In this document: one piece after another, positions 2,432 through 49,066 of the stretch | Layout: the number at the start of each line of letters is the position of its first letter | Numbering within the stretch: the first letter of the stretch is position 1 | Assembly: GCA_951799425.1 (NCBI GenBank) | Contig: OX637410.1 | Location: 6,882,001 to 6,946,000 of the forward strand | Reading direction: 5' to 3' | DNA length: 64,000 nucleotides | Origin: Ilex aquifolium | Taxonomy: Eukaryota > Streptophyta > Magnoliopsida > Aquifoliales > Aquifoliaceae | The notes under the pieces: model-generated | The model's input: the letters and a program-made list of their open reading frames with translations, nothing else | Databases searched by the model: none | Told to the model about the DNA's origin: nothing | Program-made: the position numbers and the translations under genes

Positions 2432-2436
2432 CCCCT

Positions 2437-6528: not shown

Positions 6529-7842
6529 GATTAAACCGTTGGAAGTGAGAGACTAATGTGGAGGTTTAGGCACAAGTAGACCCCGTGACAAGTCTACCAT
6601 GTATCAAGAGCTCACAACCACATTTGCACTCAACCTAGTCAAACCAAACACTTTACACTACGAGGAAGAATGGAAGAGAGTTGATTTCACATACACAAGA
6701 GGAAATTCCCCTTGGATTAGACAACTAAAAGTCTGGCTACTCATAGTCAAAACAAGAACAAGCATAATGTAATGAGACATGGTAGCAAAATAAAGCATAA
6801 GACTTGTATTGATGCAAGGAAAAGTTTAGACTACAAGAACAATTTCATTCATACCCAAAATACCAAGATTGAAGAACAAATACCCAAATGACGAAATGTA
6901 AATCCTAGAACACTTAACAAAGCTTGATTACAACTAAAATAAAAGAGTTTAGAGTGAAAGAGGAAAATATTACAAGTAATTGAAAGCTTAATACAATGAA
7001 AATGGGGAAGGAAATTCAAAAACCCAACTTTCTCTCTCTATAACTTCATCTCCTTCCTAGGAATTTCTCTTTCTAAAAGCTTGTGAAAAAACTGAATAAT
7101 CTGGATAGCTTTGTCAAAATTCGTGCATACCCCTCCTATGGTATGTGAGAACTGACTTCCTATGAGTGGGAAGGGATTAGACACTTCAACAAGCAAGGAC
7201 AGCCAAACATGCACCTCACATGCCTTCACCAACTTCCCTTTTTCTCTCTCATACCTCTCCCATGGCTTCTCTTCCAAAATCATCCTTTAGGTGCGAGAGA
7301 TCATCATGGTGTGTCAAAGATGTTAGGGCATGTGTGGGATGACAAGAGGTGGGCCCCTGAAGTAGGTAGAGTCGTGTTTGTAGGCTTCTAGCGTTTCTGG
7401 GCAAAACTAACTGGTAGAAAGATCAAAAACCTACCAGTAGGTTTTTGATAGTAAGAAAAATCTATCGGTAGGTTTTGGTAGAGGCTGCGATAGAAGAATT
7501 CCAGTGCACTTTTCCTGCCGGTAGGTTTTGGAACTTCTACCGGTAGGTTTTTGCTGATTTCTATGGGTAGGTTTTAATGAACTTCTACTGGTAGTTTTCT
7601 CCTGTTTTGGCATTTTCTTGGTCTCTTGATGTCCCGGGCCATCCGTTAAGCCTTCCCTTATTCTCCATTGCCTTTAAGCACTTGATGGGAGGCTTAATAC
7701 ATGCCCTTACTTGCTCTTTACCTACCATCAGACGAATTTCCATTAAAAGTGATTTTAAATGCATTTTCTCCCATTTTCACCACAAAAACAAGTATAAATG
7801 GGTGCAAAGAGATACATGATATACAATATTCTATGCTCATCA
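6529..7842 (-). mobile_element. Family A solo LTR, right part (continues at 28837-29250)
   Basis: The unit ends CTCATCA at 7842 (minus-strand start TGATGAGCATAGAATATTG). The following CTAAT (7843-7847) pairs with GTAAT at 28832-28836 as a 4/5 target duplication, and an intact B LTR elsewhere has CTAAT at this site. With 28837-29250 it makes about 1728 bp, a normal size for the family. Confidence 0.8.
7408..7594. promoter_or_regulatory. Cluster of CTACCGGTAG-type palindromes
   Basis: Degenerate to perfect copies occur at 7408-7417, 7431-7440, 7462-7471, 7515-7524, 7537-7546 (perfect CTACCGGTAG), 7561-7570 and 7585-7594. Most centres are 22-24 bp apart. Most departures from the perfect palindrome are C-to-T or G-to-A changes, as expected from CpG decay. 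Confidence 0.6.
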
Positions 7843-7847
7843 CTAAT

Positions 7848-8360
7848 GCTTTTGACTTAATTCATAAACTGGAACTCCATCTTCATTGAATCATCAACCT
7901 GCCAATAATATAGCTGAGGTAAACCTTTTGAATGGTTCTCCTTCAAATTTACTAAAGATATTTGGTTGATGTACGGTACATAGACCTTCTAGCTAACCTA
8001 AACAGTTCCTATGTTTTGGTTCTATTAATAAATCAAACCTACCTGTTAATTGTTCAGTAAAATGAAGGTTAATTGTTGTAAGGTAGCATTTCCAAAGTCA
8101 AGCATGAATCTGCATGTTGGATCCCCAAACTAAAGAATATCCTTTAATATTTATTGTTATTCAAAGTTTAATTCATTGTTTATTTGTTAAATCTAAGCTT
8201 ACACCGCAAACTATTTCATTGCACAAAACACGCACGACAATCTTACATTTTCTATTTTGAATACCAATAGTTAGCTCCTTGTGGGTTCGACCTCAGACTT
8301 AAACCGGGAAATATTACAATTTGACCCCTTATACTTGGCTGTAGGATTTAAATCAGGTCA
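7848..8360 (+). mobile_element. Family B LTR, 3' part (continues from 27829-28836)
   Basis: The sequence matches the 3' third of the complete B LTRs (40679-41806 on plus, 43434-44947 on minus), including the GTGGGTTCGACC block and the AATCAGGTCA end. It is followed by a primer-binding site. The 5' part of this LTR is at the other end of the inserted block; together they give about 1521 bp, against 1509 and 1514 bp for the two other copies. Confidence 0.8.
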
Positions 8361-8367
8361 AGCTTTT

Positions 8368-8385
8368 TGGTGCCATTGTTGGGAG
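8368..8385 (+). promoter_or_regulatory. Decayed primer-binding site (tRNA-Asp type)
   Basis: The sequence TGGTGCCATTGTTGGGAG differs from the tRNA-Asp complement TGGCGCCGTTGCCGGGGA at six positions, mostly C-to-T and G-to-A. This fits decay by cytosine methylation in a silenced copy. Confidence 0.7.
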
Positions 8386-8564
8386 TTATGGTGATTTGAA
8401 AAAGAACAGGGAAGTTGTTATAATATGTATTCTATGTGCATATACTGTTTGTTTTCTTTTTATTGTTTATGTCTGTTAAGTTGTTAGTAGGGTCTATAAA
8501 TCTGTTTGGTTCTTCGTCCTCATCATCATCATCATGAGCATCTTCAAACTCCTTTGAGTTAAGC

Positions 8565-9605
8565 ATGGCTAATAATAATCTAAGAGAGCAAGAAGTTGGT
8601 CACAATGCTAGACCTTTGAGAGAATATTTTTATCCTGCACGTACAAGTGTCCCCTCATGTTTTGCATTCCCCACAAATGCTCCAAATTTTAATGTTAAGG
8701 CAGGGACAATACAACTTTTGCCTCAGTTTCATGGTCTTGATTCTGAAAATCCTTACTTGCATATGAAAGAATTTGAAGAAATATGTGGTGCATCACAAGA
8801 CAATTCTGAAATGGCCCAGTTAAAACTTTTTCCTTTTTGTTTAAAAGATAAAGCTAAACAATGAATAAATTCTTTAAAAGCTCAATCCATTCCAAGTTGG
8901 CAAGTTTTGCAAAATGAATTTTTCAAGAAATTTTTTCCTGTGCATCTCACAAATGCATTGAGACGTCAAATCATGATTTTTTTTGTGAAAGATGGAGAAA
9001 TTTTTTATCAATGTTGGGAAAGATTAAGGATTTTCTCCAGACTTGCCCACATCATGCATTTGAACGTTAGACTTTAGTTGGATTCTTTTATGATGCCCTT
9101 CCTTTTGCAATGCATCAGTTTGTTGAAATGATAGCCCGAGGAGAATTCATGGGTAAAAATCACGATGAGGCATTTGATTTTTTTGATACCATTTATGAGA
9201 GTTCTCAGATGTGGGACTTTGCCTCACCAAACGTAGTTGAAAGTAAGTCATCCCCATTAGGAGGGAAATATGGGTTAAAGGAAGATGATGACCTTAGGGC
9301 TAGAATGACTAACTTGTCTCGAATGTTAGAGGCTTTAGAGATGAAAAAAGTCAAAGAAGCTTCAGTTGTGTCACCCATCGATCAATTATTTGGAATTTGT
9401 GCCTTGTCAGGACATCCCACGGGAGAATGTCATACTATTCCAGCCTTTAAAGAAGTTTTGATGGAACAGACTAACGCTATTTCAAATTATAACAAGCCTT
9501 ATTCCAACCCCTATTCTGAGACCTACAATCCAGGGTGGAGGAATCACCTGAATTTCAGTTGAAAAAATAGATAGCTAGTGAGTCAGTAACCAGGACCACT
9601 TCCAC
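8565..9605 (+). pseudogene. Family B (Athila-clade) gag, broken
   Basis: The ATG at 8565 opens a gag that reads through a capsid-type domain (TIQLLPQFHGLDSENPYLHM, LKLFPFCLKDKAK, then FFKKFFPVHL and FVEMIARGEFMGKNHDEAFD). It ends in a degenerate knuckle (ICALSGHPTGEC, first Cys lost) and the Athila-type YNPGWRNHLNFS motif. There are stops at about 8862 (a conserved Trp to TGA) and 9068, a frameshift near 9000-9060, and stops after 9560. It is preceded by LTR, PBS and a 200-bp leader. It ends abruptly near 9605 against minus-strand A-family sequence, so the C terminus and all of pol are missing. Gag would form the particle; this copy cannot. Confidence 0.8.
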
Positions 9606-9829
9606 CACACCCGGACTACTTCGTCATTTGGCCCGAGGGTGGGCTTGTCCACATGATGCTCGCATGTCACACTGTTCTCCTCAATGCTCTTCATGCTAGC
9701 ATCGTTCTTTTGTATATTTCTTCTCTCCCCACTCCCACTTCCACTACTAGGCCCCGCCACCGTCCGCTTACGGGATCTTATTCCCGCAGGTGGTGCAAGA
9801 CTTGGCCCCATTCGCTTGGTTCGGGCCAT
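9606..9829 (-). pseudogene. Family A extra ORF downstream of pol, N-terminal fragment
   Basis: Starting at the Met at 9829 the minus strand reads MARTKRMGPSLAPPAG and then a basic Ser/Gly-rich stretch (KRTVAGPSSGSGSGERR). The ORF runs off into B-family gag sequence near 9606, so only about 75 codons remain. By position (downstream of integrase on the same strand) it is the start of the additional, env-position ORF of Athila-clade elements; the diagnostic central domain is missing. Palindromes at 10221-10312 lie upstream, a layout like that of the B-family extra ORFs. Function is unknown. An in-frame Met also exists at 9946, but M-A-R-T-K resembles the usual start of these ORFs. Confidence 0.5.
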
Positions 9830-10220
9830 GAAATGTAAAAATGCCCCTAGGGCCACAAAAGGAAAAATCCAAGTCCACAATTCATTAAACAACTCACAAG
9901 AGACGCTAGCGTACTTAACCAATCGGGCCATGACGTTGGAATCCAAGCCCTTGGCGAGAAATTGGGATTTTGATGGATTTGAGGGATTTTGTGAGAAAAG
10001 GAGGGGTTTTGTGGGAGAATTTGGATGAAAATGTAGTTAATCACAATGAAGTCCAACCTTAGGAAGTTTAATTGGGGGATTTGACAAGTGGGTAGAGTTT
10101 CTTTGAGGATTGGAGAGGTTTTGAGGGAGAGGAGAGAGGTTCTAAGGTGGAGAGGAGTCGAGAAGAGGAACAGTTTTGCCGAAAATCTGAACATAAACCC
10201 TCATTTTTTTGTATTATGGA

Positions 10221-10312
10221 AAAAACCTACCGGTAGAACAATCAAAAACTACCAGTAGGTTTTGTGCACTGGAAAATTCCTACCGGCAGGTTTAAGCAAA
10301 CTTCTACCGGTA
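10221..10312 (-). promoter_or_regulatory. Internal palindrome module upstream of the family A extra ORF
   Basis: Palindromes lie at 10227-10236 (CTACCGGTAG), 10249-10258 (CTACCAGTAG), 10280-10289 (CTACCGGCAG) and 10303-10312 (CTACCGGTAG), with centre spacing of 22 and 23 bp within pairs. The motif and spacing match those in the A solo LTR at 7408-7594. I see no clear TATA box here. Confidence 0.55.
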
Positions 10313-10439
10313 GGTTTTAGTCTTTTCCAAAAAATTTCCTGTGCTCTTGTTTTCATCTCCACTCCAAATTTATTCAACTCCTACACGTTCTAACAACCTA
10401 TTTACAACCTCCACTCCACCGAAACCTTGAACCGTGTTT

Positions 10440-12318
10440 GTGAACCACGAATGAGTGACCATGCCCAACTTTATTTACGAAATTGCAATGCGATTTGGGT
10501 TTTTTGAAATTTTTCAAAACAAATGACATGGAAATCTAAATTCAACAAACAAAATGAACACCCAACATATAAAGCGCAAATTGAAAAACAAAAGGCATTC
10601 CTATTCCTTCTTAATATCTAAAGTTTGAGCAATATTCCCCTATCCTACAAGTATAAAGCTATTCGATAAAAATTCTCAAACCCCAAACTAAGCAGACATG
10701 AGCTTCACCATAGCTTTAAATGCTATTCTAGAGTGTACACCTATACATTTATTTTCAAACTCGTGTGTGTGTGAAATGCACATGTAATTTAAGCATTTAC
10801 TCAACAGATTTCACATTCACTTAGCTATCCAAATTCAGCTTCGATGCAAAACTCGCCAATGATTTCTCTCAAAATTGAATACTTTATGATTATCCTGGCA
10901 TGCTCTCCATGTGTATATGTGAGATAGAATCTTGTGCACAAATCAAATGCTCACATATAATCCCAACATGATGTGCATGCATAACAAATGAAACGATCTT
11001 GGCATAATCTCATGAATGAATGTTACGACATTAGACAGCAAAACTAACGTTTCTTTTTCATTAAAGGTATGTTTTCCCCATACTTTCTTTATATCATTTA
11101 GGGCTTTTATGGGTTGTAATGAGGCCTTGGGCTGATATTTCAGGTAAGTGAAACTAATGGTAGAGGGAGACAAAAAGGGTTATTCTGAAGGCATGACCTT
11201 TATTATCAAAAAATCTATTTTTTTGTGGCATTTTCAACTTTACACCTTCACATCAAATTTTTGTCTCTTTCTTTTTTTCTTCTTTCCTTTTCTTTTCTTT
11301 TCAACCCCTATTTCTCTTTTTCTGGGGCTTTCTTTCTCTTTTTCATTCAAAATTTGAATTCGGCACCATTTATCCCTTTTTGGGTTTCCTCACCACATTT
11401 CTTTTCCTTTATGATCAATCACAGTCAGTTCTTGGAACAACCAAGGTGTGGTAAATTTTTATCATTTTGCACTGGCTTGGTCAATTGTGTGGCATGGAAA
11501 CGAATTTTCAAATAAGCCTCAATCACGGCACTAGGGACAATTTTTTTCCAAGAAAAGGTCTAAGGCTCAAAGATTTTCAAAGATAGCCTAAGATCATTTC
11601 TAGATAAGCATGGGAGGCATATTAGCATTTCAAGACAAAGTCAATCAACTATCCACATGCACTCTAAACAAAGCAAGCATAAAGAGATTATTGAATAGAT
11701 TTTGAATTTGAAAAATTGTTTCCTTGAATAAATGTAAGTTCCCTCCAACAAGGATCGACACTAAAGCTCAAATGGATACTTATTTCATCTCCACTATGCA
11801 TGTCAAGCTCTAAAATGTGAATCCAATCCGTAAATTTTCCAAAATTACACATTCATGGTGTACTATGGTTGAGTTCAAAAGAAAACACATATGTGATACT
11901 CAGGCATAGGATAGACTTCTATGATGTGCTCATATATTCAAAGTTCAAAGTAAAGATCTCACTATCATTAGACCCATAACACTCTGAATAGAGGAATATT
12001 GTTTAACATTCAAAAAAATTAGGTCAAATATGTGAATGGTGAATTTCAAAAAAATTTGGTGTATCATACAAATGGTGCACCTCACCCCCCAAATTGAACT
12101 ATGCATTGTCCTCAATGCAACAAAAAGATATGGAATGCAATCATCGACTTAAAAAGATAAGTAGGGTTAGAGAATACCTCGCAATGAGCTTTGACAAAAA
12201 CACCACAATTTGCACATTTGAAGAAAGAACACTATACACCGATGAAAGTGAGTAAACAAAATAACTAGCGAATTAAATGATCAAAGAAGCGATTGTACCC
12301 TAAAAACTACTTGAACAG
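10440..12318 (-). other. Family A noncoding tail downstream of integrase
   Basis: There is no convincing gene in these 1.9 kb. On the minus strand it contains, in order: a CAATTTGGGGGGTGAG PPT-like tract (about 12080-12095) next to a GAGGACAATG-like block, a pyrimidine/purine tract (11260-11350), and TTTCATGAGATTATGCCAA-like sequence (plus-strand 10999-11016). The same blocks recur in the same order at 50040-51530 and, more diverged, at 34600-35500 and 61200-62100. Confidence 0.7.
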
Positions 12319-13734
12319 TTATTCATCAACAAGTTCTGGGTAAACCAGATCCACCAACTCTTCCTCCACCATTTGAACCTCAAAACCCTTGAAGAATGGT
12401 TTAAGTCTTTGGCCATTGACCTTGAATGTTTTGCCATCTTTGGGGTTTGTTATTTCCATGACTCCGTTAGGGTAGGCCATCTTGACAAGATAGGGCTCAT
12501 CCCAACATGATCGGAGTTTCCCTTGGAAAATGGAGAGTCAATAATTATACAAGAGCACTTTTTGTCCGAGCTCAAATGTCTTTCTTACAACGGATTTTTC
12601 ATTGAAAATCTTTGCCCTTTCTTTGGAAATTTTTGAGCTCTCATATGCATCTCTACGAATTTTCTCCAATTCATTCAAATCCAACTTCCTATTTTCTTCG
12701 ACTATTCTCAAATTGAAGTTCAAGGTTTTAATGGCCCAATATGCCTTGTGCTCCATCTCTACCGGCAAGTGACAACCCTTGTCGTAGACTAGCCTATAGG
12801 GAGATATACCTAGGATAGTCTTGTAAGCGGTGCGGTAAGCCCAAAAGGCATCAGTCAACCTAAGTGACCAATCCTTTCGATTTGGGTTCACCGTTTTCTC
12901 TAGTATATTTTTGATCTCCCTATTGGCCAACTCGGCTTGGCCATTAGTCCTTAGGTGATAAGTGGTGGACACCTTGTGTGTTACACCATATTTATGCATT
13001 AAAGAGGCAAATGGTTTATTGCAAAAATGAGACCCACCGTCACTTATCATTGCACGAGGTACCCCAAACCTTGAAAAAATATTTTCTTTTAAAAACTTAA
13101 CCACAACACGATGGTCATTGGTCTTGGTTGGGATGCCCTCTACCCACTTGGACACATAGTCCACTGCCAGTAGGATATAGAGGTAGCCAAAGGACATAGG
13201 GAATGGAACCATGAAATCGATGCCCCAACAATCGAATATTTCAATGACTAGCACCGGGGAAAGGGGCACCATATTCCTACGGGTCACACTTCCCAACCTT
13301 TGACACCTATCACACTCTTTACAAAATGAAACACAGTCTTTAATTAAAGAAGGCCAATAAATACTTGATTGCAAAACCTTAGCCGAAGTTTTCTTAGAGG
13401 AGAAGTGGCCACCACATGCCTCAGAATGGCAGAAGGAAAGGACATTCTATTGTTCATTTTTCGGTACTCATCTCCTCATAACTTGATCTAGGCAATACTT
13501 GAACAGGTACGGGTTGTCGAAGTAGAAGTACTTCACATCCGCCATGAATCTTCGTTTGTCTTCCGGGCTCCAATGTGGTGGTATTTGTCCTGTGGCAAGA
13601 TAATTGAAAATGTCAGCGTACCACGGACAAATAAAATGAATAGAAAACAAATGCTCATCGGGAAAAAAATCAGGGATATGGATGTGCTCTTCGGCATCTT
13701 GGACGACAAGTCGTGACAAATGGTCCGCCACCAC
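12319..13734 (-). pseudogene. Family A (Athila-clade) integrase, broken
   Basis: The minus-strand reading starts after RNase H (VADHLSRLVVQDAEEH), passes the HHCC zinc-binding domain ([13 protein letters not shown] then CKECDRCQ), and has the catalytic core with D in [12 protein letters not shown] in MISDGGSHF and E in [13 protein letters not shown]-terminal domain ends VNGQRLKPFFKGFE and a stop at 12319-12321. In-frame stops occur near 13467, 13446 and 12535. The D,D,E residues are all present. Integrase joins cDNA to the chromosome. The gene follows RNase H directly, in the normal Ty3 order. Confidence 0.85.
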
Positions 13735-15433
13735 ATTATCAACTCATTTCTTGTCTTTAATGATCAAGTTGAATTCTTGAAGGAGGAGGATCCACCTAAT
13801 GAGTCTCGGTTTCACGTCCTACTTAGACAATAAATACTTCAAAGCAGAGTGATTAGTGTAGACTACAATAGGTGAACCAATGATATAAGACCTAAATTTG
13901 TCCAATGCAAACACTTCGGCTAGCAACTCTTTTTCGGTGGTAGTATAATTCATTTGTGCTTCATTTAGAGTCTTACTAGCATAGTATATTGCATATGGAC
14001 TTTTTTCCTCCCTTTGACCTAGCACAGTGCCGACCGCGTAATCACTCATGTTGCACATGAGCTCAAATGGTAGTTCCCATTTGGGTGGTCGCATGATTGG
14101 AGGTGAAGTGAGTATGCTTTTGAGTTTTTTAAAAGATGCCTCACAATCATCCGACCACACAAAGGGAACATCCTTTGCTAGCAAATTAGTCAAGGGTCTT
14201 GCCAATGCACTAAAATATTTTATGAATCTAAGATAAAAACTGGCATGGCCAAGAAACGACCTGATATCCTTGACGACCTTTGGAGTGAGGAGGTTGGAAA
14301 TTGCTTCCACCTTGGATTTTTCTACTTCAATCCCCTTTGTAGACATGATGTGCCCAAATACAATCCCTTAGGTCACCATGAAGTGGCACTTCTCCCAATT
14401 TAGCACCAAGTTCTTCTCTTCACATCTTTCTAGCACTCTCTCCAAATTTTCCAAGCAACCCTCAAATGAGTTCCCAAACTCAGAAAAGTCATCTATGAAC
14501 ACTTCCACAATTTTCTCCACCATATCGCTAAAAATTCCCATCATGCATCTCTGAAAAGTTCCTGGGGCATTGCACAATCCGAATGGCATTCGGCGATAGA
14601 CAAAGGTACTGAAAGGGCACGTGAAAATGGTCTTCTCTTGGTCCCCCAAAGCAATCTCTATTTGGTTGTAGCCGGAGTAGCCATCCAAGAAGCAATAAAA
14701 ATGATGTCCGGCTACTCTCTCCAACACTTGGTCAAGGAATGGCAAGGGGAATTGATCTTTTCTTGTACATGAGTTGAGTTTCCGATAGTCGATACAAACT
14801 CTCCAATCGGTAACCACCCTTTTCGGAATCAACTCATTCTCCTCATTTGCTACCACAGTGACTCTTGATTTCTTTGGTACTACTTGAGTGGGACTAACCC
14901 ATTTACTGTTGGCAATTGCAAAGATAATGCCCAATGCAAGTACTTTGAGTACTTCATCTCTCACCACATCCTTCATGATAGGATTTAGCCTCCTTTGTGG
15001 TTGTTGGGACGGTTTGAAGTCTTCCTCTAAATAGATTCGGTGAGTGCAAATGAGGGGGCTAATCCCCTTGATATCGACAATTGTCCAACTGATTGCTCCC
15101 TTATGCCTCCTCAACACTTGCAACAAATCCTCTTCTTGCTTTGGCTCCAAAGAAGTGCTTATCACCACCAGTAATTTATTGTGCTCCCCTAGAAATGCAT
15201 ACTTGAGTGTAGAAGGTAGTGGCTTCAACTCCAAGATTGGTGTTTGCATGGTTGATGGAATTTTTTTTTTCTATTGTGGTGGAAGTTTCTCAAATGTTGG
15301 GGCCCAATTTCCTACCCCTTGCACACTTTTCGGCTCCTTATCTTCAACAAACTCTTCCTCCTCCAACTTTGAAATGCAAAGTAGCTCCATATGGTCCTCC
15401 ACCAAGGTGTCAATCTGATTGACCTCATGCACT
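13735..15433 (-). pseudogene. Family A (Athila-clade) protease tail, reverse transcriptase and RNase H, broken
   Basis: The reading enters at 15433 in the linker after protease (VNQIDTLVEDH), then LELKPLPSTLKYAFLG, the RT motifs RRLNPIMKDVVRDEVLK, MPFGLCNAPGTFQRCM and FIDDFSEF, then RFIKYFSALARPLTNLL and an RNase H domain. Stops lie near 15290, 14367, 13816 and 13743. Two RNase H positions expected to be catalytic Asp read Asn (MCNMSDYAVG and VYTNHSAL), both explained by G-to-A change on the coding strand. A plus-strand family A LTR begins at 15434, so gag and most of protease are separated or lost. These domains would copy element RNA and remove the template. Confidence 0.88.
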
Positions 15434-17077
15434 TGATTAGCACAACACTTTGCATATTTTAGGTGCTAATCATCCTATTTTCAATTGCTTTTGAGGGTTA
15501 AATGATTGGAGTTGTATTATTAGAGTTCTTAACGAAGATTTTTGGTGTTTATAGAAAAAGGCGCTAAATGAGGCTTCTTAAAGCCTTCCCAAATAAGTTG
15601 AGGTGAGTGAGGATGAAAGAGTGGCTAAAGAATGGCTCAGGAGTGAAGAAATCAGAAAAATCAGACAAAGCAGCAGAAGCGTACCGGTACGGTTTGGCCA
15701 CTGGAACATAGCGTACCAGTACGCAGTACCGGTACGGTACTGCCTCTGGAGTTCGGGGTACTGGTACGGTCTGCTATCCATGCCCCAAATCTCTGCAACT
15801 CAGGTCCGCCATTTTTTAGGGACCCACCAATCACTCTCCCACTTGTCTCTGACTCCTCCATCACATTGTGCTCCCTCCATTTGACTTTTGGAAGCATGAA
15901 TGATAAATGACGAGAGATAAGAAGAATGGAGTTAGGTGTGCAGGCTAGCTCTGCACCACCCTGTCCAGCCCATCCCTCTTGACAACCTATGGATTGAGAT
16001 CACATCACTCAGTTGGGAGAGGACACTATGGACATTTTGGGGGGAAAGAGGACTCCATTCATTGGGGATTCAGCATGGGATACACTACACAGATATAGAG
16101 AGAGAGAGTCTGGGTAGAAGATGATGAATAGTGTTCTAGAGAAATAAAATTGAGATTTTTACATTTTCTTCATTACATTGTCTTGTAATCTCCTGTAAGA
16201 ATTTTTAGAGCTTCATTTAATGTCATTAATGCTAGTTCCTACAAGTTCATTGCAAGTTTAATTCTCTTTTAAAGCTTTCACCATCAATGCATCAAAGTTC
16301 TTCTTTTTCTTACTTTTAAAATGGGTATTCATTGCTTTCATTTATAGCTTATGTTTGCATGCATTTAGTTACTAAAGAACTTCATTCCTTTGCAATTCAT
16401 TCTCATTACATTGTTAATTTCATCCCAAGCATGAGTAGCTAAAATCCTTTAGTTGGCAAAACCAAGGGGAACCTCCACTTAGGTATGCCATTTCAACTCA
16501 TTCTCCTCCCTTATTTCAGAGTTCAATGGTTCGGTTTGACTGGGTTGAGGGTGGATAAATTGGTGAGTCTTTGATATCCCGTAGGCCTAGTCATGGTTTA
16601 TGCTTAGATACTCACCCATCTTATCCCTAGCTTCCCACGAATCAATCCTTCATTTATGCTCTATTGGAGGAGGGATTCGAGTTGAGATGGTATTCCTATT
16701 GGAGTGACCTCTTGGATTTGCCAACGTTTGTTTCTCATTTCATTTTCACCAAAGCACACTTCACCAAACAACTTTCAACAACAAAATATTTTACACTTTC
16801 TTTCACCCAAAATCACCTTCCCCTTGGTTTACATCCTTCCCCGTGGAAACGACCTTGGAGTACCTCCAAGTAAAACACGACCCACAAAAGTCTCCTTGCG
16901 CTTGGGGAGCATTTTTGTTCATACACATAACACATTTCCACCATCTCATTTTCCTATCTCCTTGCCCTTTCTTTTGACACTACTCAAAGGGAGAGTGACA
17001 CTCCCCTCCATCCATATACAATACATTTTGAGGGATGATATTTAGGGTTTAGGGATAATAAGGAAAAACACCAAGCA
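15434..17077 (+). mobile_element. Family A-type 5' LTR
   Basis: The LTR starts TGATTAGCACAACACTTTGC directly at the break in the minus-strand pol, and ends CACCAAGCA at 17077, 4 bp before a tRNA-Asp primer site. At about 1644 bp it shares blocks with the LTR at 44958 (GTTTGACTGGGTTGAG, GATATCCCGTAGGCCT). The preceding 5 bp are GCACT; no matching 3' copy is found because the element is truncated at 20337. Confidence 0.88.
15681..15767. promoter_or_regulatory. GTACCGGTAC palindrome cluster in the family A LTR
   Basis: Copies lie at 15681-15690, 15713-15722 (GTACCAGTAC), 15726-15735 and 15758-15767 (GTACTGGTAC). The middle two are 13 bp apart. The linker CCTCTGGAGTTCGGGG matches the one at 45432-45449 and 52253-52269. 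Confidence 0.65.
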
Positions 17078-17081
17078 TTTT

Positions 17082-17099
17082 TGGCGCCGTTACCGGGGA
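17082..17099 (+). promoter_or_regulatory. Primer-binding site (tRNA-Asp type)
   Basis: TGGCGCCGTTACCGGGGA matches the complement of the plant tRNA-Asp 3' end at 17 of 18 positions (A for G at the eleventh base). It lies 4 bp downstream of the LTR end. Confidence 0.9.
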
Positions 17100-17234
17100 A
17101 GGCAAGTGTCAAACCAAGAAGGTGATTTCAGGACGACAGAGGTAGGTCCCGTGATCTTCATCACAGGCTAAGGTACGTTGTCCCGTGTATATATTCTTGT
17201 TTGTGTATAATTTCATTTGTAGATATTTTGTTGC

Positions 17235-19490
17235 ATGTGGGGAAGGGACGACCAAAATCGGTTAGTTAGGCAACCCCTTGGCCCCAACATGAATCTTGAC
17301 CAAGACCCACCCGAGGATGCTGGTGATAATTTTGAAAATGTGGATGCCAACCCGAACATGCAAAGGGGTGGGGGAGGACCAGAACCTAGAATACCCAATC
17401 CACGAATGCATTTCCCCCCTCCTAAAAATGAAGGAAACAATATCCAAATTGATCCTCTGACGAGGTCAATGCGGGAATTCATTCAACCAACCCGTACCAC
17501 CACACCTTCATGCATTCACCTTCTGGTCCAGGCTTATCTCTTCATAGTTAAACCAGGGATGTTAAAATTACTTCCTACTTTCCACGGAATTGAGAATGAG
17601 AACCCCTATTCTCATATAAGAGATTTTGAGGAAATAGTTGCAACCTTTCTCCCCAATCACAATATGGAAGAGATAGCAAGAATGAAATTGTTCCCCTTTT
17701 CCCTGAGTGATAAGGCAAAAACGTGGCTTCATTCCTTGAGACCCCGGACTGTGACATCTTGGGGCCAAATGATTTCCGTGTTTTTGAAAAAGTTTTTTCC
17801 GGTGCATAAAACCACCACCCTAAAGAAACAAATTCAAAACTTTTCTGAGCTGCTCAATGAAAAATTCTATCACTGCTGGGAACGATATAAGGATTTGCTA
17901 CAGTCCATTCCACACCATGGCTTTGAACCATGGCAAATGGTGAGTTTCTTCTATGAAGGAATCACACCAGGCCATCGACAGTTCATTGATATGGTGTGCA
18001 ATTGGGAGTTTTTGAGCAAAGACCCCGATGAGGCCTTAGATTATTTTGATGCATTGGCAGAAAATGCACAGTCATGGGACATTACGAATCCCACCGATGT
18101 ACCAAGGTCTTCTCCTCAAGGGAGCAGTCAAACTCATAGGGGAGGGATTTATGACTTGAGTGACCGGGAGGACTTACTTTCAAAAATTGCCAAATTATCT
18201 AGGAAGGTTGAGAGTCTTGAGGTCAATAGGAGGCGTGAGGTGTCACAAGTGTCAAAGGCCGAAGAGTTTTGCTCAATATGTGAGAATGTGGAGCATTCCA
18301 CATCGGAGTGCCCCAACATTCCGGCGCTTAAGGAAGCATATCACGAGCAAGTCCATGCATTTAACCAAACAAGGCAATCATTCTCCCCTCACTCAAACAC
18401 GTATAATCCGGGTTGGAGTAATCACCCTAATTTTAGTTGGAGAAATGAGAATCCCACTCCTCATGGTTCAAATGCACATACACCTCCCGTGCCTCCTAAG
18501 CAAGCTCAATACCAAAATCAATACCAAGGGCAAGGGCAAATGTCTAGCTCTCAATACCCCCGGACTAATCCGCAAGGGTATTCGACAAACCCGCCACCAC
18601 AAAATTTTTCTCCAAGTCCACCTTCACAAAGTTTTTCTCAAGGACCGTCCAATCCATCCACATACCAACCTCCTCACAAAAAGAATTTGGAGGATATGTT
18701 CCATTCCTTCATTCAAAGCCAAACCACCATCAATAACCAAAATGCCACAGCCATCAATGATATAAGAGCCCAACTCACAAAGTTGACAAATTCCATAGGG
18801 GCATCTCAACAAGAAAAGTGGAAGTTCCCCGCTCAACCACAAGAGAACCCTAGGGGTCAACACGTTGTTGAGTCATCAAAGCATTTGAGAGAGAGTTTCG
18901 AGCAACTCAAAGGTGTCACCACCCTCCGTAGTGGCAAAGAAATTGACAAAACCATTTTGCCAACAGTCTCACCCAAGACCACATTGCCAAAAGGAAAAAG
19001 TATATTGGGTGACGCTGACAAGGGTGAGAAAGAAATAGAGGGTGTTGAGAAAGAAAAATTAATTGATGATTGTGTGTTTATTCCTCCCATGCTTGCCCCT
19101 TTCCCGAGTCGTTTGAAGCCACCTGTCAAGGTGGCTAATTACGCTGATATCTTGGAAATGTTTAAGCAGGTGAGGATTAACATTCCACTCGTCGACGCCA
19201 TCAAGCAAATCCCATCTTGTGCTAAATTTTTTAAGGATCTATGCACAGTGAAAAGGAGATTGAATATCCACAAGAAGGCATTCCTCACAGAACAAGTGAG
19301 CTCAATATTGAGGACCAACACTCCTCCCAAATTCAAAGACCTCGGTTGTCCAACCATAGCCATCACCATTGGAAATTGTCGAGTGGAGCAAGCACTCCTC
19401 GATTTGGGGGCAAGTGTGAATCTTCTTCCCTACTCGGTGTATCAACAACTTCAGCTTGAGGAGTTGAAGCCCACCTCAATCACGCTTTAA
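17235..19490 (+). CDS. Family A gag-protease polyprotein, 751 codons
   Basis: This is the longest intact frame in the window. Residues about 85-270 form an Athila-type gag domain (MLKLLPTFHGIENENPYSHI, MKLFPFSLSDKAKTWLHSL, then FFPVHKTTTLKKQIQNF and GFEPWQMVSFFYEG). A CCHC knuckle follows at about 346-359 (CSICENVEHSTSEC). Residues 400-480 are rich in Pro, Gln and Ser, followed by a helical stretch (HKKNLEDMFHSFIQSQ) and, at about 715-735, the protease site LLDLGASVNLLPYSVY; D-L-G-A-S is usual for this clade. The TAA at 19488 replaces what is normally a Gln codon (CAA), so the polyprotein is cut inside protease. The start is the first ATG about 135 bp after the PBS. Gag would form the particle and recruit RNA. 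Confidence 0.88.
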   Translation: MWGRDDQNRLVRQPLGPNMNLDQDPPEDAGDNFENVDANPNMQRGGGGPEPRIPNPRMHFPPPKNEGNNIQIDPLTRSMREFIQPTRTTTPSCIHLLVQAYLFIVKPGMLKLLPTFHGIENENPYSHIRDFEEIVATFLPNHNMEEIARMKLFPFSLSDKAKTWLHSLRPRTVTSWGQMISVFLKKFFPVHKTTTLKKQIQNFSELLNEKFYHCWERYKDLLQSIPHHGFEPWQMVSFFYEGITPGHRQFIDMVCNWEFLSKDPDEALDYFDALAENAQSWDITNPTDVPRSSPQGSSQTHRGGIYDLSDREDLLSKIAKLSRKVESLEVNRRREVSQVSKAEEFCSICENVEHSTSECPNIPALKEAYHEQVHAFNQTRQSFSPHSNTYNPGWSNHPNFSWRNENPTPHGSNAHTPPVPPKQAQYQNQYQGQGQMSSSQYPRTNPQGYSTNPPPQNFSPSPPSQSFSQGPSNPSTYQPPHKKNLEDMFHSFIQSQTTINNQNATAINDIRAQLTKLTNSIGASQQEKWKFPAQPQENPRGQHVVESSKHLRESFEQLKGVTTLRSGKEIDKTILPTVSPKTTLPKGKSILGDADKGEKEIEGVEKEKLIDDCVFIPPMLAPFPSRLKPPVKVANYADILEMFKQVRINIPLVDAIKQIPSCAKFFKDLCTVKRRLNIHKKAFLTEQVSSILRTNTPPKFKDLGCPTIAITIGNCRVEQALLDLGASVNLLPYSVYQQLQLEELKPTSITL

Positions 19491-20337
19491 TTGGAGGATC
19501 ATAGTATCCGTACACCAAGGGGAGTAGTTGAGGATGTCTTAGTTCAAATTGATAAATTTTACTTCCCTGTCGATTTCATTGTGCTTGATACACACCCTGT
19601 TGCAAACCTATGCTCCTAAATTCCCGTAATACTTGGAAGACCCTTCCTTGCTACATCTAATGCCGTGATAAATTGTAGAAACGGTCTAATGAAGTTGGCA
19701 TTTGGGAATATGACAATGGACCTCAATGTATTCAACTTGGCAAAGCAACCGGGTGATGATGAGGAAGTAAGTGAGGTTAATAGAATCGACACTTTGGTTG
19801 AGGAACAGTTGGAGTTGGAGGGGATGTTGAAGTTTAAGGAATAAGGAATTGTGGATCTTGAGAATTATGATGAGCAAGAGGAGGTAGAAGATTTGAAAGG
19901 GATGGAAAGGTGGATCCCTACATTCGAGGAGTTACCCCATCGAGAAAAGAAAATTTTTCCGTCGGATGAACAAAAGCCCAACTTGGAGTTGAAGCCCTTG
20001 CCCTCCTATTTGAAGTATGCCTATCTTGGGGAAGGTGAAACATTTTCGGTGGTCATTAGCTCTACATTGAACATGGAACAAGAAAAAAAACTCTTGGAGG
20101 TATTGAGAAAGCATAAAGGAGCAATTGGGTGGACCATTGCAGATATCAAGGGGATAAGCCCTCTCATTTGCACCCACCGCATATATCTTGAGGAGGATTC
20201 CAAACCTTCCCGAAAACCACAAAGACGGTTGAATCCCATCATGAAGGAGGTGGTGAGGGATGAGGTTCTGAAACTACTTGATGTGGGGATCATTTTTCCA
20301 ATTGCCGATAGTAAGTGGGTTAGCCCTACGCAAGTAG
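19491..20337 (+). pseudogene. Family A protease end and N-terminal reverse transcriptase, truncated
   Basis: Reading continues in the gag-PR frame after the stop: VIVLD-type strand, then IPVILGRPFLATSNAVINC (protease C-terminal signature), VNRIDTLVEEQ, and LELKPLPSYLKYAYLG, the linker leading into RT (KGISPLICTHRIYLEED, RRLNPIMKEVVRDEVLKLL, DSKWVSPTQV). Stops at about 19617 and 19842 also look like point changes. At 20338 the sequence switches without warning to minus-strand copia sequence, so the RT catalytic core, RNase H, integrase and 3' LTR are missing. Confidence 0.85.
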
Positions 20338-22018
20338 GCTTCTTTAAGTGCTTATCCTTGCCAGTGTTAGCCTTTTTAGGGCTTGTGCTTGCTTGTAGAG
20401 GTGGAGGGTTGGGATTACTCTTTACTAACACGGTCTTAGAAGTAGTGGTGGTGGTATTCTCATTAGCATAACCTAAACCTCTCTTGTGCCCCACACTCTT
20501 CCCTATAGCCAACATTTGTTTCATGTTTTTCAGTGCTTTGGGAAAGTTTTTTTTTTAGAGCTCTTGCGATTTGTGAATGTTTTTTATCAAGTTTGATAAG
20601 TTTAAACTCAAGACCTTTCTTGGACTCTAGAAGCCCTTTATGTTCTCTCTCAAGGAAGCTTACCATGTCATGGAGGGGTTTCTTTTCCTCCTCAAGCCCA
20701 CAAATGTGAGCTTTGGACTTAAACAAGTCCACATGAAGTACTTTCTTATCATCTTCACTCATAGAGACTTTAACCTCTAAGTCATCTATATCCGTAGTGG
20801 GACTCAACTCAACTTCCCTTTCTTCTTCTTCAGAAGTTTCTCATGGTGGGAGTGGGAATTAACCTACGAAAGCTGTGAGATTCTCTTCATCACTATGAGA
20901 AGAGGAATCATCACTCGTTGTGGACTCACATTCACTGTCAATCTCACTCACTTTAGCCTTCAAGGCCTTCCTCATATCCTTGGGCATGTCCTTCTTCTTA
21001 GCACTTGGACATTCAACCACTACATGTCCAAACATATGACATTTATAGCATTGGATGCATGCCCCTTTATTTTCAACCTTGTGTCAAGTTTTACCCCCCA
21101 CTTTCTTTTCCCTTCCTAAGGAGACTTAGGTCTACTTGGATTCCCTTTGGACCTTTATTTTTTGAATTTTCGTGCAAGACAGGCTATGTCCTCTTCTCCT
21201 AACCTGGGTGACTCAGATTTACCCCTTTCAATTTTTAAATTTAAAGCTACACCTTTCACTTTCCTGTGTGGAAGAAGGTTCAGCTCAAAAGTCAAAATTG
21301 ACCCAACTAGGTCTTCGACTGATACCGAGGTCATATTGACACTCGTCTCTAATGAGGTCAACTTAGCATGAAATCTCTCCAGTAGAGATCTCATGATTTT
21401 TCACTTCATGGCAATATCATCGATTTTGGTACCTATACAAAGGAAGAATTAACAATATCACACAGTTTAGCATAAAAGTCACTAAATGTTTCTTCCTATA
21501 GCATCCTCAAAGTCTCAAACTCAGAGGTATACCTTTGGAGATGAGACGTCTTGACCATTCTAGTTCTTTCGTGTGAAACCACAAGAATATCCGATGTGTC
21601 TTGTAATTTGCGATTCTCTAACACTCATTTGGTGTCATGGCATTGAATATTGTATTCAAGCCTTTCAAGTTCCACCGCACCGGTTCTATCTCGATTATTG
21701 ACCAACTATTGGGGATTTCAATTCAACCACTACTTCGCCACATTCGACTTGTGTGTTGGTGGTGGGAGGGCTCCAACCTTCTTACACGGTCAACCAAACT
21801 ATATCATTTACAGATTTTAGAAATGCTCTCATTTGAGCTTTCTAATACGTAAAGTTAGAACAATCGAATAGAGGTGGTCGTGCAATTGACTCGCCTTCAT
21901 TTGAGACTACATTTAAGACTTACTAGTAGTAATGATTGACTTAAGAGGGCTAAACACTAGGTGTGTAAGTAAAAAAAGAAATGCCTACAAGTGTCTATGT
22001 GCATCTCAGGGCAACCAC
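20338..22018 (-). pseudogene. Ty1/copia gag and start of pol, broken
   Basis: The minus strand reads a copia-type gag domain (ERFHAKLTSLETSVNMTSV, VEDLVGSILTFELNL, then GEEDIACLARKFKK) and a CCHC knuckle CYKCHMFGHVVVEC (plus strand about 21014-21055). A coiled-coil-like Glu/Lys-rich region follows (FLEREHKGLLESKKGLEFKL), then LAIGKSVGHKRGLGYANE, a signature preceding copia protease and integrase. There are frameshifts and stops between the pieces. It starts next to a Met-tRNA-like primer site at 22019 and ends at 20338, fused to the plus-strand A element. Lineage within copia is uncertain; the long linker suggests a Sirevirus or a relative. Confidence 0.75.
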
Positions 22019-22030
22019 GCTCAGATACTA
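22019..22030 (-). promoter_or_regulatory. Probable copia primer-binding site
   Basis: The minus strand reads TAGTATCTGAGC, 10 of 12 matches to the initiator Met-tRNA complement TGGTATCAGAGC. It lies 2 bp from the proposed LTR edge TGTTGTTCCGGG at 22033 and upstream of copia gag. Confidence 0.55.
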
Positions 22031-22032
22031 AT

Positions 22033-24802: not shown

Positions 24803-27070
24803 TGTATCACCCTGCATTTTCTTTTATATATGTATATAGATATATAGTAAATAATTGTTGTAAAAATGTGGATATGTGTAGTGATGTGTGTTTGAATTTG
24901 TTAGATTGGAAAAATAGAGATTTAAAATGTTAGTGGAAATAATAGTTGAAATTTGGTTTTTTATAAGTGAAAATAGGAAATTTTAGGTCCTAGAACTTGT
25001 ATTAAATAGGCTTGGTGTAGAAATATGTGTTGGAGAGGTTTGGGATGGATTTGGTTGGCTTAGGAATGGATTGGAAATGGAAAAAAAAAATGAATGAAAC
25101 AGGCTGTGAACAGTGCACTGGCTGCAACTTCAAGCGCGATTTCGACCTTGATGCAGTCAATATCTCCCAAAACTCAAAACATGAAAGTTGTAGAGATCTT
25201 TCTTATAATTCCATAGCATCTTGAATCATCTCAATCGGAGCTCGGATGAGAGAGTTATGCCTATTCTACGAAGACTGGTCTGGAACAGAGTGTTTGCCGA
25301 AACAGTAACAAAAAATCGGGATTTTTGTGTTTTAAAACACCATTTTAAGCCCCATTTGTCCCATTCTTCCATTCCACTCTCACCAAAAACCTCTTAGAGC
25401 CCTAGGAGAAGATAAAGGGAAGAAGAAAAGGGAGAAAGAGAGTCTCTAAAGCTTGGGCTTTGGTTTGAAATTCTTGATTTCAAGGTAGGGGATTTCTTCT
25501 CTTTCTCTTACATTGAGGTTAGGGCTTATGTATATATGTATGTTTTGCTCTAAATGTTATATATATGATATGAAATCATCCTCTCTTAGTCTTTTGGGCA
25601 AAGATTACATGTTTTTAACAAAGTTAGGGTTGAATACCCATGAAATCTCTTTTTGTGTTTCAAAACCCTAGTTATTGGAAAGTAATGGATTTCTTCTTAA
25701 ATTCTTCCTTTATTATTGATTTTGAAACCATAGTGCTTGGTGTTGAGTAATAAAATGATGTTGTGGTGATCTCTTGTATTTTTGTAATTGTTTATTGAAA
25801 TTGTCATGTGATAAATTTGGGGGTTTTTAAGTTATACTTGTAAATTGTGAAATTGTGTTTGGTATTGTATCTCTTATGAGTGTGGGATGACCATGGGTGG
25901 CCTTTGACGAGATATCGTAGAGTGAGTAGACGTGTTGCTTGCTCCGTGTGGGTTGGCATTTTTCCTACCACTCGTAGTGGGGTTAGTGCTTTGGTAAGAC
26001 TAAACCGCTATTGCTCACGGGTGCCGTGTCAGAGGGTTAGTATACTAATGCCTGGGTTGGATACGTCACTGTCATTGGTATGACATACGCCCTTCCTAAA
26101 GGATGGATATCTTTGAGAAGATTTGTGTGCGTGTGTGTGGGCTAGATATTACTCAATGTGTCGATTCATGGGGCTTGCCTTACATCATGGTGGAGATACA
26201 TGTTTATAATGTTGATACAAATGCAATGGTTAGTATTTGTTCATTCTACCAGATACGGTTTCTACAAGAGTTTTGAGAAGTATGGGATTCCGCAAGAACT
26301 TGTGAGAAACGGTGTATGGTGGAATATATTATTAATTGTGTAATTGGTTCCATTTATTCATTAAATTACTGTTGTTACCTAAACTTGAGATCCATTCTAA
26401 AATGTCCCTGTTTTACTTCAAAGATTATATATGTTATTTGTGAAATGAGACCGACTTGTTTTACATGTTTTATAAACCTTGTTCGAGTTTGGGAGAAATG
26501 TTGCTACAGAGCTTAGTGCTCACCCCCTACAAATTACATTTTTCAGATACGGTGTTAGAGGAGAACCTCGGAGTTGACGAGTAGGGGTATTGGGAGGCCC
26601 CATCCGAGGGAAATCGAGATTCCGAGGTGGACATATAGAGATATAGCTTCTTTTGCACTAGACTAGGGAATTTAATTGGAGATCATGTATAGTTTAGTAT
26701 TTTGTTTGTTCTGCTGCTAAGTTTGAGTGTAATTCTTTTGGAATGTAATTGCCATAGCTTGGCCTATTCTTTTGGGATGATATTGTGGATATTATTTATG
26801 GTGAATAAAATCTTATTTTGTGATGTGTAAATGGACTCGGTGTGGTCAATAGTTATGCATATGTGGACCCAGTGTGGTCAATTGTAATATAATTGTCCAG
26901 GTTGTGTTTTGGGTAGAGTTCCCCGTACAAAGGAGACTCTGCCCAAATTTTGTTAAAATATGAATGGTTGATGAATGAAACTTTTGTCGTGATGGATTTA
27001 CTTAGTGCTCTCATGCGGTGAATGGTTTTTAGAATGTAATGTCACCCAAGGGGGTTTTTGGGGCGTTACA
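24803..27070 (+). mobile_element. Tekay-like (family T) solo LTR with GTATT target duplication
   Basis: The unit runs TGTATCACCCTGC... to GGGGCGTTACA (2268 bp), flanked by GTATT at 24798-24802 and 27071-27075. It aligns with the other T LTRs (ATATATGTATATAGATATAT near the start, GCTCACCCCCTACAA and the GTACAAAGGAGACTCTGCCC block near the end). It has no PBS or internal region. The GTACCGGTAC module of its relatives is absent at the matching place (about 25260-25320). Confidence 0.92.
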
Positions 27071-27075
27071 GTATT

Positions 27076-27300
27076 ACAAGAGTATTTATTATCATCAAAA
27101 TCTTGCTAAACCAAGCATAGTGTCAACATTCTTTCCCTTTTTGATGATAACAAGCACAATAAACCAACTACGCATTTAATTCATCTTCTTACTTAACATA
27201 TGCATATTTATAGTGTCAAATATATATATATCAATGCAATATTTCTCTCCCTTTTGACATCATCAAGGACCACAACCCCGACTTTACTAGCACCAGAGGT
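27076..27300 (-). mobile_element. Copia LTR end, PPT and 3' noncoding region
   Basis: The LTR resumes after the T insertion and ends GTGTCAACA at 27128. Immediately outside, the minus strand has AAAAAGGGAAAGAA (27129-27142), a polypurine tract. Further out is a second purine tract, AAAAGGGAGAGAAATATTGC on the minus strand (about 27240-27260). The rest resembles a copia 3' untranslated region and holds an AT-rich TATATATATA run at about 27221-27232. Confidence 0.5.
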
Positions 27301-27828
27301 GTACTAATCAATGAACCCCTTAATTGTTTTAATAGTCTTTCAGTAATGCAAAGGAGAAATGTATAATGCCTTTATGTGGTGTGAAATAGATGTGACTAAT
27401 CCTAAGTCAAAGGGTCGAGAAACTCAACGCTACTATTCTTGAACAACTTGGAGCCAAGCCTTCTTTTTCCACTACTAGGGATATGAACATAATGGGAGAT
27501 CGAGAAGAACAAGAAATACCAAACTCGAGTTCTATCATTTGGAGCCCCTATGGATTCAATTGTCAACTGTCCCTGGCAACCCTATAGGCTATTGGCTTCT
27601 TCCTATATCCATGTTTGGGCAAGCAATTGATTCCATTACCGAACCAAACAAGATTATTCCCTTAGTTCCACCTATCAAAATTTTTCACACTATTTAAGGG
27701 GCAACATCTATTAAGAGGGGATTGATGGACTTCATCGAATTCTTGCTCTCCATGATAAAAAAAACTTGCTGAAATTGAGCTGGTTTGAATTGCGCATATC
27801 CAACCAAGAGTACCTTATTGAAAGCTTT
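27301..27828. other. Unassigned interval
   Basis: About 0.5 kb with no recognisable domain, LTR edge or RNA gene. Short open stretches on the plus strand (for example MGDREEQEIPNSSS near 27490) are interrupted. It directly precedes the B LTR start at 27829, and no PPT is visible there. Confidence 0.4.
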
Positions 27829-28836
27829 TGATTAACCTTGAATAATGCAATAATAAATTAGAAATTAGGGTTAAGTGTGTGCATATAGTAGGTTAAAGTA
27901 ATTACTTTATGTCGTATTAGGGTTAATGTTTGATTTCTATATTTTGTAGGATTTCAAAGATAATTAAGGAAGATCAGAGGGATAAAAGTGCAAAGGTTGA
28001 AAAGGAAAAGGGAGGCAAGTGTAATTAACAAGTCAAAGAGTCAACAAAGGAAGGTTGGCAAGCAAAAAAACTAGATAATCCTCACCGTCTGGACGGTGGT
28101 GGTTGCGTCCAGATGGTGCCCTAAACTGCCTTACTCTTCCTCCTCCTCCCATTGGTCCATTTCAGCAACAAGAAATCCTGATTGGTCTGCCACCCTGAAG
28201 CACCTCTCCAGTGGCTATAAATAGCCTACTTCATCTAGTTTCAGAAGAGTTCAATCTAGTTCAGAAGGGGAGGAAGGGAAAAGAGGAAAAAAGACTATAG
28301 AGAGAGTTCTACAACTAGACGAGTGAAGCCCTGCCCTAAACACTTCACAGCCAGAATTTCTTTACTTCTACATTTCTGTTTTATCCCTTCTACTTGGAGG
28401 GTTAAACCTCTCTCACCTTTGTGTCCTAGTTGGTAATAAGAGTGGAAGTGTTTCAACTTATCCTTGGGGACTGATTTATACTATTGTCACGAGATTATCT
28501 CGTGCTTCTTGCTTGTTTACATCAATGAGGTGTGAGTAGTCTACTTATACTATTTAGTATGGGTAAAGACATGTGTATTTATGTTTGAGTTATGAAAATG
28601 CTGATGTTTTATTTATGTGTTAATGTTTATACCTCCCTTAACTGATGGATGGTTACTATTATTTTGTTTGGTATCGTATGCTCATGGTTACGAGTATCGA
28701 GCTATGCTTATTGCTATATACCAGTTCATGTTAATATTATTACATATTTCATGCATGATACAATGATGAATGTGGTGGGTTTTATGTAATAATCGAGAGA
28801 TTGGTTATAGATGGGTTAAATCCCGGCATAGGTAAT
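27829..28836 (+). mobile_element. Family B LTR, 5' part (continues at 7848-8360)
   Basis: It starts TGATTAACCTTGAATAATGC and matches the complete B LTRs through GTTATAGATGGGTTAAATCC. It is interrupted at 28837 by the A LTR. The paired palindromes CCGTCTGGACGG (28085-28096) and GCGTCCAGATGG (28105-28116) are 20 bp apart, and a TATAAATAG box lies at 28216-28224. Confidence 0.85.
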
Positions 28837-29250
28837 TGCTTGATTGCGATTCACCCTAATCTCCAAACATGATCCCGGTTGTATGTATATGGCTTATATG
28901 AATAGGTGAGTGTCACTCTCCCTCGGGTTCGATGCTAGAAATGGGGAAAATTGTGTGTGTGAGTGAAACATGTGTGTTTGCAAAAATGCTCCCCAAGCAA
29001 AGAGAGACTTGCAATGTCGTGTTTTACTTGGAATGGGTATTCCAAGGTCGTCTCCTCAGGGAAGGAAGGTCAAATTTTTGTGAAGGGTGATTTGTAAATA
29101 AATGAAAATTAGAAAATCTTTTCAATTGTGTTTTGGTGAGTGGTGTTTTGATAAAAATGCAAGAAAGCAAGGTTGGCTAATTCAAAGAGGTTATTCCAAT
29201 GGGAATGCCAAATCAACTCAATTCATTCAACAAATGGTGTCTCTGTGTTT
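28837..29250 (-). mobile_element. Family A solo LTR, left part (continues at 6529-7842)
   Basis: It begins TGCTTGATTG at 28837 (minus-strand end CAAGCA) and includes the block around GGTCGTCTCCTCAGGGAAGG (29047-29066) shared with 825-845 of the A solo LTR. It stops at 29250, where T LTR sequence begins. The break corresponds to the same internal position at which 6529 starts. Confidence 0.8.
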
Positions 29251-29530
29251 ACTTCCTAACTTCCAATACACCCCATATTACCTCTCCCAATGTTTTTCGA
29301 CCTTCCGGATTCAATGGAGGACTTATTTTGACCTAAAAATATTTAGAAACTTCCATAATCCCTCTTCTCAAGTTTACACACCTTCGAAACTTAAACTTCC
29401 CAATCCATTTGTCTCCCTAGTATTTATTCCTACTATTACAATCTATTTAATTTATTCTTACATCATTGCTTTTATTAGAATTACTAGAAAATTATATTAC
29501 TATATTAATCTAAACATGTGGGGGTTTACA
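29251..29530 (-). mobile_element. Family T 5' LTR, terminal part (belongs with 4568-6528)
   Basis: The sequence ACTTCCTAACTTCCAATACA and following matches the start region of T LTRs in reverse (compare 35888-35970) and ends GGGGGTTTACA at 29530, the LTR terminus. It completes the LTR broken at 6528. The plus-strand ORF across it and the neighbouring LTR (29102-29611) is therefore not a gene. Confidence 0.8.
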
Positions 29531-44947: not shown

Positions 44948-44957
44948 CAACCGCAAT

Positions 44958-49064: not shown

Positions 49065-49066
49065 AA

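Follow-up and report, generated by a model that had tools for sequence, protein, structure and literature searches.

We analysed a 64-kb stretch of the holly genome (Ilex aquifolium, contig OX637410.1, positions 6,882,001 to 6,946,000; hereafter the window), which consists of nested long terminal repeat (LTR) retroelements. A block of 22,722 bp within it has its parts in rotated order and lies inside the LTR of another element, here called T. The best explanation, and quite probably the right one, is that a DNA circle was closed at a microhomology and was reinserted by non-homologous joining. With somewhat less assurance, we also think it rather likely that the locus represents the heritable reinsertion of a large plant extrachromosomal circular DNA (eccDNA), i.e. 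of a whole retroelement nest, and that the closing and the opening joint can both be read from this one locus. The locus is readable because the nested LTRs record the original order.

Separate pieces of the block and of T were compared by BLAST against the window; the control copies for all LTR comparisons were drawn from the same 64 kb, i.e. they are paralogous and do not come from relatives. The first-pass annotation of this DNA had claimed that two LTRs, A1 and B1, come into order only if base 29250 is joined to base 6529, that the T LTR is split with a TA overlap and no visible loss, and that the restored lengths are about 1728 bp for A1 and about 2241 bp for T. These claims are borne out by the alignments, which agree with them to one or two bases, and the same lengths were obtained from the coordinates. 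A1 is a solo LTR in minus-strand coding orientation, presumably of the Athila type, and its halves stand at opposite ends of the block. If the halves are abutted, the offset is 0 relative to the two best copies (at 46.3 and 52.8 kb) and -2 and -3 relative to poorer copies at 1.0 and 16.7 kb, whose anchors are more remote from the break; when the 46-kb copy was paired through a distant anchor as a fifth comparison, the offset was +29. Intact relatives have a primer binding site (PBS) just beyond the end that corresponds to 28837. The restored length of A1 (1728) stands beside 1847 for A2 (585-2431) and 1834 for A3 (44958-46791).

The same join restores three levels of nesting, and it is only with this join that they fit. 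At the first level A1 lies inside B1 between the 5-bp duplications GTAAT and CTAAT, which differ by one mismatch, and the joined B1 halves show an offset of -5 in both of the two copies, i.e. the length of this duplication. At the second level B1, itself a solo LTR, lies inside an older element, X, between perfect 6-bp duplications (AGCTTT), which is one level deeper than the first-pass annotation had gone. Target duplications of five bp are usual, and the sixth base may be due to chance. At the third level, taking out B1 would make ..TTGAAAGC adjoin TTTTTGGTGCCATTGTTGGG; the resulting stretch is similar to the junction of LTR and PBS in two other copies (..CCAAGCA TTTTTGGCG[CT]CGTT[AG]CCGGGG). 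Eight plant proteins were used as tblastn queries for element genes; they place the gag of X at 8598-9571 on the plus strand, and the protein matches stop at 9556-9571. Blastn self-matches of the window were listed from 100 bp upwards, and among them the region 27073-27828 has no repeat match of at least 100 bp. Within the block, the T-family solo LTR T' is a well-preserved control for reading the nest.

On the acceptor side, the motif TGGTATCAGAGC, which we take to be an initiator methionine (iMet) PBS, lies directly outside 4568 and is followed by minus-strand gag and protease reading frames. T is thus the 5' LTR of a minus-strand element, presumably a chromovirus. Two intact copies, at 35.9 and 58.1 kb, have the uninterrupted site GGAA-TA-CTTCC, and in each of them bases 6528 and 29251 map to one and the same base (35965 and 58134, respectively), which corresponds to a 1-bp overlap or to a shared TA. 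The restored T LTR measures 2241 bp and T' 2268 bp by their coordinates. Paired with T', a diverged copy at 25 kb, the T pieces show an offset of -113 (506 bases were expected and the copy has 393), which has no bearing on the break; in this pairing and in the +29 pairing of A1 the anchors are approximately 300-500 bases apart. The permutation is genuine and reciprocal, and it conserves the sequence to one or two bases. The sequence common to both partners is 2 bp (TA) at most, and no homology was found between the T and A flanks, as 165 of 200 simple shuffles of these flanks score as high. The TA may or may not have been part of A1 originally, since four A copies have, by eye, 15 bases where A1 has 14 to 16. 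The block edges lie inside A1 and not at LTR ends, at most 2 bp are repeated, and there is no 4-6 bp target duplication.

A candidate for the joint that would have closed the circle is found within the block, at 20331-20337. Here the reverse transcriptase (RT) gene of an element Z and the opposite-strand gag of an element W meet; both are truncated and neither has an LTR end there. Z matches a further element, Y, through the word CAAGTAG and then diverges from it, and the minus-strand gag frame of W reads into the same seven bases. When 200,000 joints were drawn at random from the window, 0.0685% of them had a shared word of at least 7 bp. The best Z/W similarity scores around 20337 are 19 and 20 (no shuffle control); homologous closure at this place was rejected, although these scores speak for the absence of a long repeat only. 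In the block, tblastn detects neither the later genes of X, nor a protease or gag for Y, nor the remainder of the pol of Z. Given the nesting X(Y(Z)), a break in Z is enough to take away all the lost genes together, so a single joint explains the truncation of all three elements. Closure of the circle at 20331-20337 appears probable. Closure at about 9560 or about 15464 was considered and set aside: each edge has a TG, so these may be ordinary insertion borders, and the far ends, which would carry the second target duplications, are missing. No donor scar was found in the window, where the plus-strand Athila-type matches of the eight queries lie at 8598-9571, 17238-20336, 30181-31924 and 49048-49311; among those after 20337 none resumes the RT of Z at its break.

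The following course of events is suggested. Nested LTR elements spanning 22.7 kb of a chromosome would have been cut out or copied, with the order W gag ... T' ... X LTR, B1 with A1 inside, X gag, Y, and Z to the middle of its RT gene. The ends of this segment, in the W gag and the Z RT gene, would have been joined across all or part of the word CAAGTAG (at most 7 bp of microhomology), plausibly by alternative end joining, giving an extrachromosomal circle. The circle would then have been opened at a different point, inside A1, and the new ends attached at a break in the T LTR, without loss and with no more than 2 bp (TA) in common, through end joining or template switching. The marks of a circular intermediate are present in that the segment order, as read from the nested LTR registers, is rotated with orientation kept, and in that the joints have microhomology only. 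A reciprocal exchange between a circle and the chromosome had already been put forward as the simplest explanation, with re-entry by microhomology and not by integrase. The former is supported by the permutation, the restored order and the candidate closing junction, the latter by the 2 bp shared, by a T/A similarity not above that of shuffles and by the position of the edges inside an LTR. Since T and A lack homology, inverted repeats are not visible and the edges are not LTR ends, an integrase or a transposase is unlikely to have been the joining activity.

Table 1. Coordinates of the block, of the elements nested in it and of the acceptor (positions in the window)
Feature	Position	Strand	Basis or remark
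Inserted block, circularly permuted, 22,722 bp	6529..29250		BLAST of pieces vs window
Left exchange junction GGAA-TA-GATT	6527..6529		read from sequence
Right exchange junction GTGTT-TA-CTTCC	29249..29252		read from sequence
Acceptor T LTR, PBS-side part	4568..6528	-	5' LTR of minus-strand Ty3-type element; two intact copies collinear to base 6528
Acceptor T LTR, remaining outer part	29251..29530	-	both intact copies continue here, overlap 1-2 bp
T element, internal gag/protease region	2404..4377	-	PF03732, PF08284
Solo LTR A1, PBS-side part	28837..29250	-	intact copies continue from it into 6529-7842; offset 0 for the best two
Solo LTR A1, remaining part	6529..7842	-	BLAST vs intact copies
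A1 target duplication GTAAT	28832..28836		read from sequence
A1 target duplication CTAAT	7843..7847		intact B2 likewise has CTAAT
Solo LTR B1 (into which A1 inserted), first part	27829..28836		87% identity to B2 (43.9-44.9 kb)
Solo LTR B1, second part	7848..8360		86% identity to B2; offset -5 equals target duplication
B1 target duplication AGCTTT	27823..27828		read from sequence
B1 target duplication AGCTTT	8361..8366		read from sequence
Element X, putative end part of 5' LTR, ending ..GAAAGC	27076..27822	+	last bases compared with Z and A3 only
Element X, PBS-like TTGGTGCCATTGTTGGG and gag, interrupted at ~9560	8367..9559	+	tblastn with plant gag proteins; motif
Element Y, 3' part, integrase, RNase H, RT, RT-side linker; without 5' part	9560..15463	-	both edges presumed from TG
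Element Z, LTR, PBS, gag, protease, RT start	15464..20337	+	PF03732; tblastn/blastn, motifs
Probable closing junction, shared word CAAGTAG, up to 7 bp	20331..20337		Z leaves Y there; opposite-strand gag frame reads in
Gag of element W, truncated at junction; PBS-like motif ~22019-22031	20338..22031	-	reading frames; zinc knuckle
Solo LTR T', T family, perfect 5-bp duplication GTATT	24803..27070	+	opposite orientation to acceptor T

The open reading frames of the window encode gag, protease, RT, RNase H and integrase of Ty3-type elements. The protein matches are to flowering plants, the named ones being eudicots, and the longest gag has its best named relative in Actinidia eriantha (50% identity). 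The labels Athila, chromovirus and Ty1-copia are our own assumption from PBS and gag motifs and were not named by any search. An Rfam search gave nothing at gathering thresholds. The gag of W, which we take to be a Ty1-copia element with its PBS, has the zinc knuckle CIQCYKCHMFGHVVVECP; its PF00098 match (E 0.0095) is below the Pfam cut-off.

The edge at which Y enters X, at about 9560 (TG edge), is fuzzy, given that the X gag matches end at 9556-9571. The linker of Y resembles that of Z (VNQIDTLVED vs VNRIDTLVEE) up to about 15423, and the putative LTR of Y has no second copy among the blastn matches of at least 100 bp. The 3' part of Y contains a minus-strand open frame of 153 codons (9578-10036, with MARTKRMGPS) that has no Pfam match above the cut-off. 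The Z LTR probably begins at the TG of 15464, while its similarity to other A LTRs is visible only from 16146; with this start, which is suggested by the TG only, it would measure 1614 bp (15464-17077). Its sole LTR relative elsewhere in the block, among blastn matches of at least 100 bp, is A1.

Several neighbouring structures were also seen. The pol of the T element contains A2, an A-family solo LTR that has CCCCT on both sides (580-584, 2432-2436; a perfect 5-bp duplication) and is independent of the block. Just outside the block, B1-matching fragments occur in inverted order at 29533-30098, and within about 80 bases a plus-strand RNase H/integrase stretch (30181-31924) follows; the region 29533-31924 is possibly another non-insertional joint. 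At 44950-44958 the B-type LTR B2 starts a few bases from the end of the A-type LTR A3, i.e. the two lie almost end to end. Short palindromic tandem motifs of the GGTACCGGTACC type recur in the right part of the window (52208-52245, 55572-55727, 58352-58422).

The same sequence could also have arisen without a circle, if W, A1 and Z had each been broken and the two adjacent fragments had then been ligated, with their order exchanged, into a broken T. Such shattering and re-joining yields an identical product, and the joints do bear the marks of end joining. However, it requires an extra simultaneous break, and both A1 ends would have to survive without visible loss, as judged by the offset of 0 in the two best copies; we regard it as unlikely. 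The block could further be a linear piece of a tandem array of 22.7-kb units, reaching from A1 to the same A1 base of the next unit. In that case the Z/W joint would be a tandem-duplication joint with its microhomology, but two cuts at the same base of different units would be needed and the window contains no second unit. We consider this very improbable, slightly more so than an error of the assembly, which is itself very unlikely: the plant DNA is repeat-rich here and the joints were judged from the assembled sequence alone, yet no more than 2 bp are common to the partners and reciprocity of the joints holds to 1-2 bases, whereas misjoins fall mostly in long identical repeats. The least credible course is a series of inversions or an ordinary nested insertion. 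Both are common in plant repeats, but the halves of A1 and those of T each keep their orientation, nested insertion is unable to place the later half first, and inversions would need base-exact reuse of the A1 and T breaks, an argument also made for human loci (PMC7450558).

Some other mechanisms were tried and rejected. A DNA transposon with a TA target would fit the TA, but no inverted repeats are visible at the block ends, and we consider it unlikely; the best local score between the two 60-bp block ends is 13 (no shuffle control), and their first 30 bases look unrelated. Homology-driven exchange between T and A was set aside on the shuffle result given above. The block is not a one-LTR or two-LTR circle of an LTR retrotransposon, as it has parts of X, Y, Z and W together with the solo LTRs A1, B1 and T', in both orientations. 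Insertion of the block by an integrase was discarded because of the edges inside A1 and the repetition of at most 2 bp.

A number of points weigh against reinsertion of a circle or against details of it. We infer the covalently closed circle from one assembled locus alone, and the donor and the empty T site are unseen. No homologue of the W gag end was found, so that the W edge depends on the reading frame alone and the shared word may be shorter than 7 bp; moreover, Z and W may have come together through an older deletion that has nothing to do with circling. The right T piece is 93.9% and the left one 79.5% identical to the 58-kb copy, and the respective values for the 36-kb copy are 81.0% and 74.3%. 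This difference may reflect uneven divergence along the LTR. The X LTR end does not have the final A of the CA that is present in Z and A3. Finally, closing joints of human circles have 0-2 shared bp or 1-bp insertions, as compared to up to 7 bp here (PMC7450558), and the rice circles listed in the available part of the report reach at most about 5.2 kb, as compared to 22.7 kb (PMC10948907).

The return of free DNA circles to plant chromosomes is an open point that a footprint of this kind addresses. If reinsertion of a circle is the true course, eccDNA derived from transposable elements (TE-eccDNA) is no dead end, and repeat nests can move as units without integrases of their own. Nested LTRs and their target duplications provide an internal register, and with the same proviso such events would be countable in assembled plant genomes without the donor. 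The search rule would be to look for swapped LTR halves whose target duplications match across the block ends only.

The source material is known in plants. As far as the available parts of the reports go, ATHILA copies of Arabidopsis, chiefly centromeric ones, feed eccDNA (PMC12273906), and in rice 4.4% of the eccDNAs have direct repeats, about 95% of these being 7-15 bp long, which the authors attribute to alternative end joining (PMC10948907). The present locus is similar with respect to LTR elements, including ATHILA, as a source and to the repeats of 7-15 bp in part of the rice circles (PMC12273906, PMC10948907). It differs in that the plant work, as accessible in these sources, deals with free circles and not with a resolved permuted insertion (PMC10462705, PMC12273906, PMC10948907). 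In the accessible text of a 2023 Arabidopsis study TE-eccDNAs are said to be generally considered a dead end, while integration is suggested in yeast, cattle and cancer cells (PMC10462705). The event is of a known kind; within the parts of the open-licence literature on plant eccDNA and permuted insertions that were at hand we recognised no plant precedent, i.e. no footprint with closing and opening joints resolved in one locus, which is a weak negative. The first-pass annotation had called such a re-entry unusual. This seems fair for plants, but the same signature is in print for human (PMC7450558) and, in the portion of the report available, for wine yeast (PMC3053389).

The cattle case differs from ours in being gene-bearing, in having a phenotype and in comprising two events. 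The circles of cattle colour-sidedness were reportedly excised and then reinserted. These translocations are cited as circle excision and reinsertion in two of the articles, one of them available in part (PMC7450558, PMC10462705). The 17-kb region B of wine yeast, as far as the available text describes it, is circularly permuted, and four of six insertions have 2-3 shared bp (PMC3053389). Circular permutation and insertion without homology are likenesses to the holly block, whereas region B, according to the same partial text, has several insertions, varied opening points and a working replication origin, and here one insertion is known (PMC3053389).

A close comparison can be made with human segmental duplications via circles, in which the order A-B/C-D is flipped to B-A/D-C with microhomologies or short indels only (PMC7450558). 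The sizes given for them are 22 to 3918 kb, and where the circles were closed they show 0-2 bp in common or insertions of one base (PMC7450558). In the human cases a donor is visible and what took place was a duplication; in the present one the host is a plant, the donor is unseen and the order is taken from the nested LTRs. The likeness extends to the order flip, the distinct closing and opening points, the short microhomologies or indels and the lack of homology at the joints, and also to the position of most breakpoints in unrelated repeats and to the size, the smallest human ancestral unit being 22 kb (PMC7450558).

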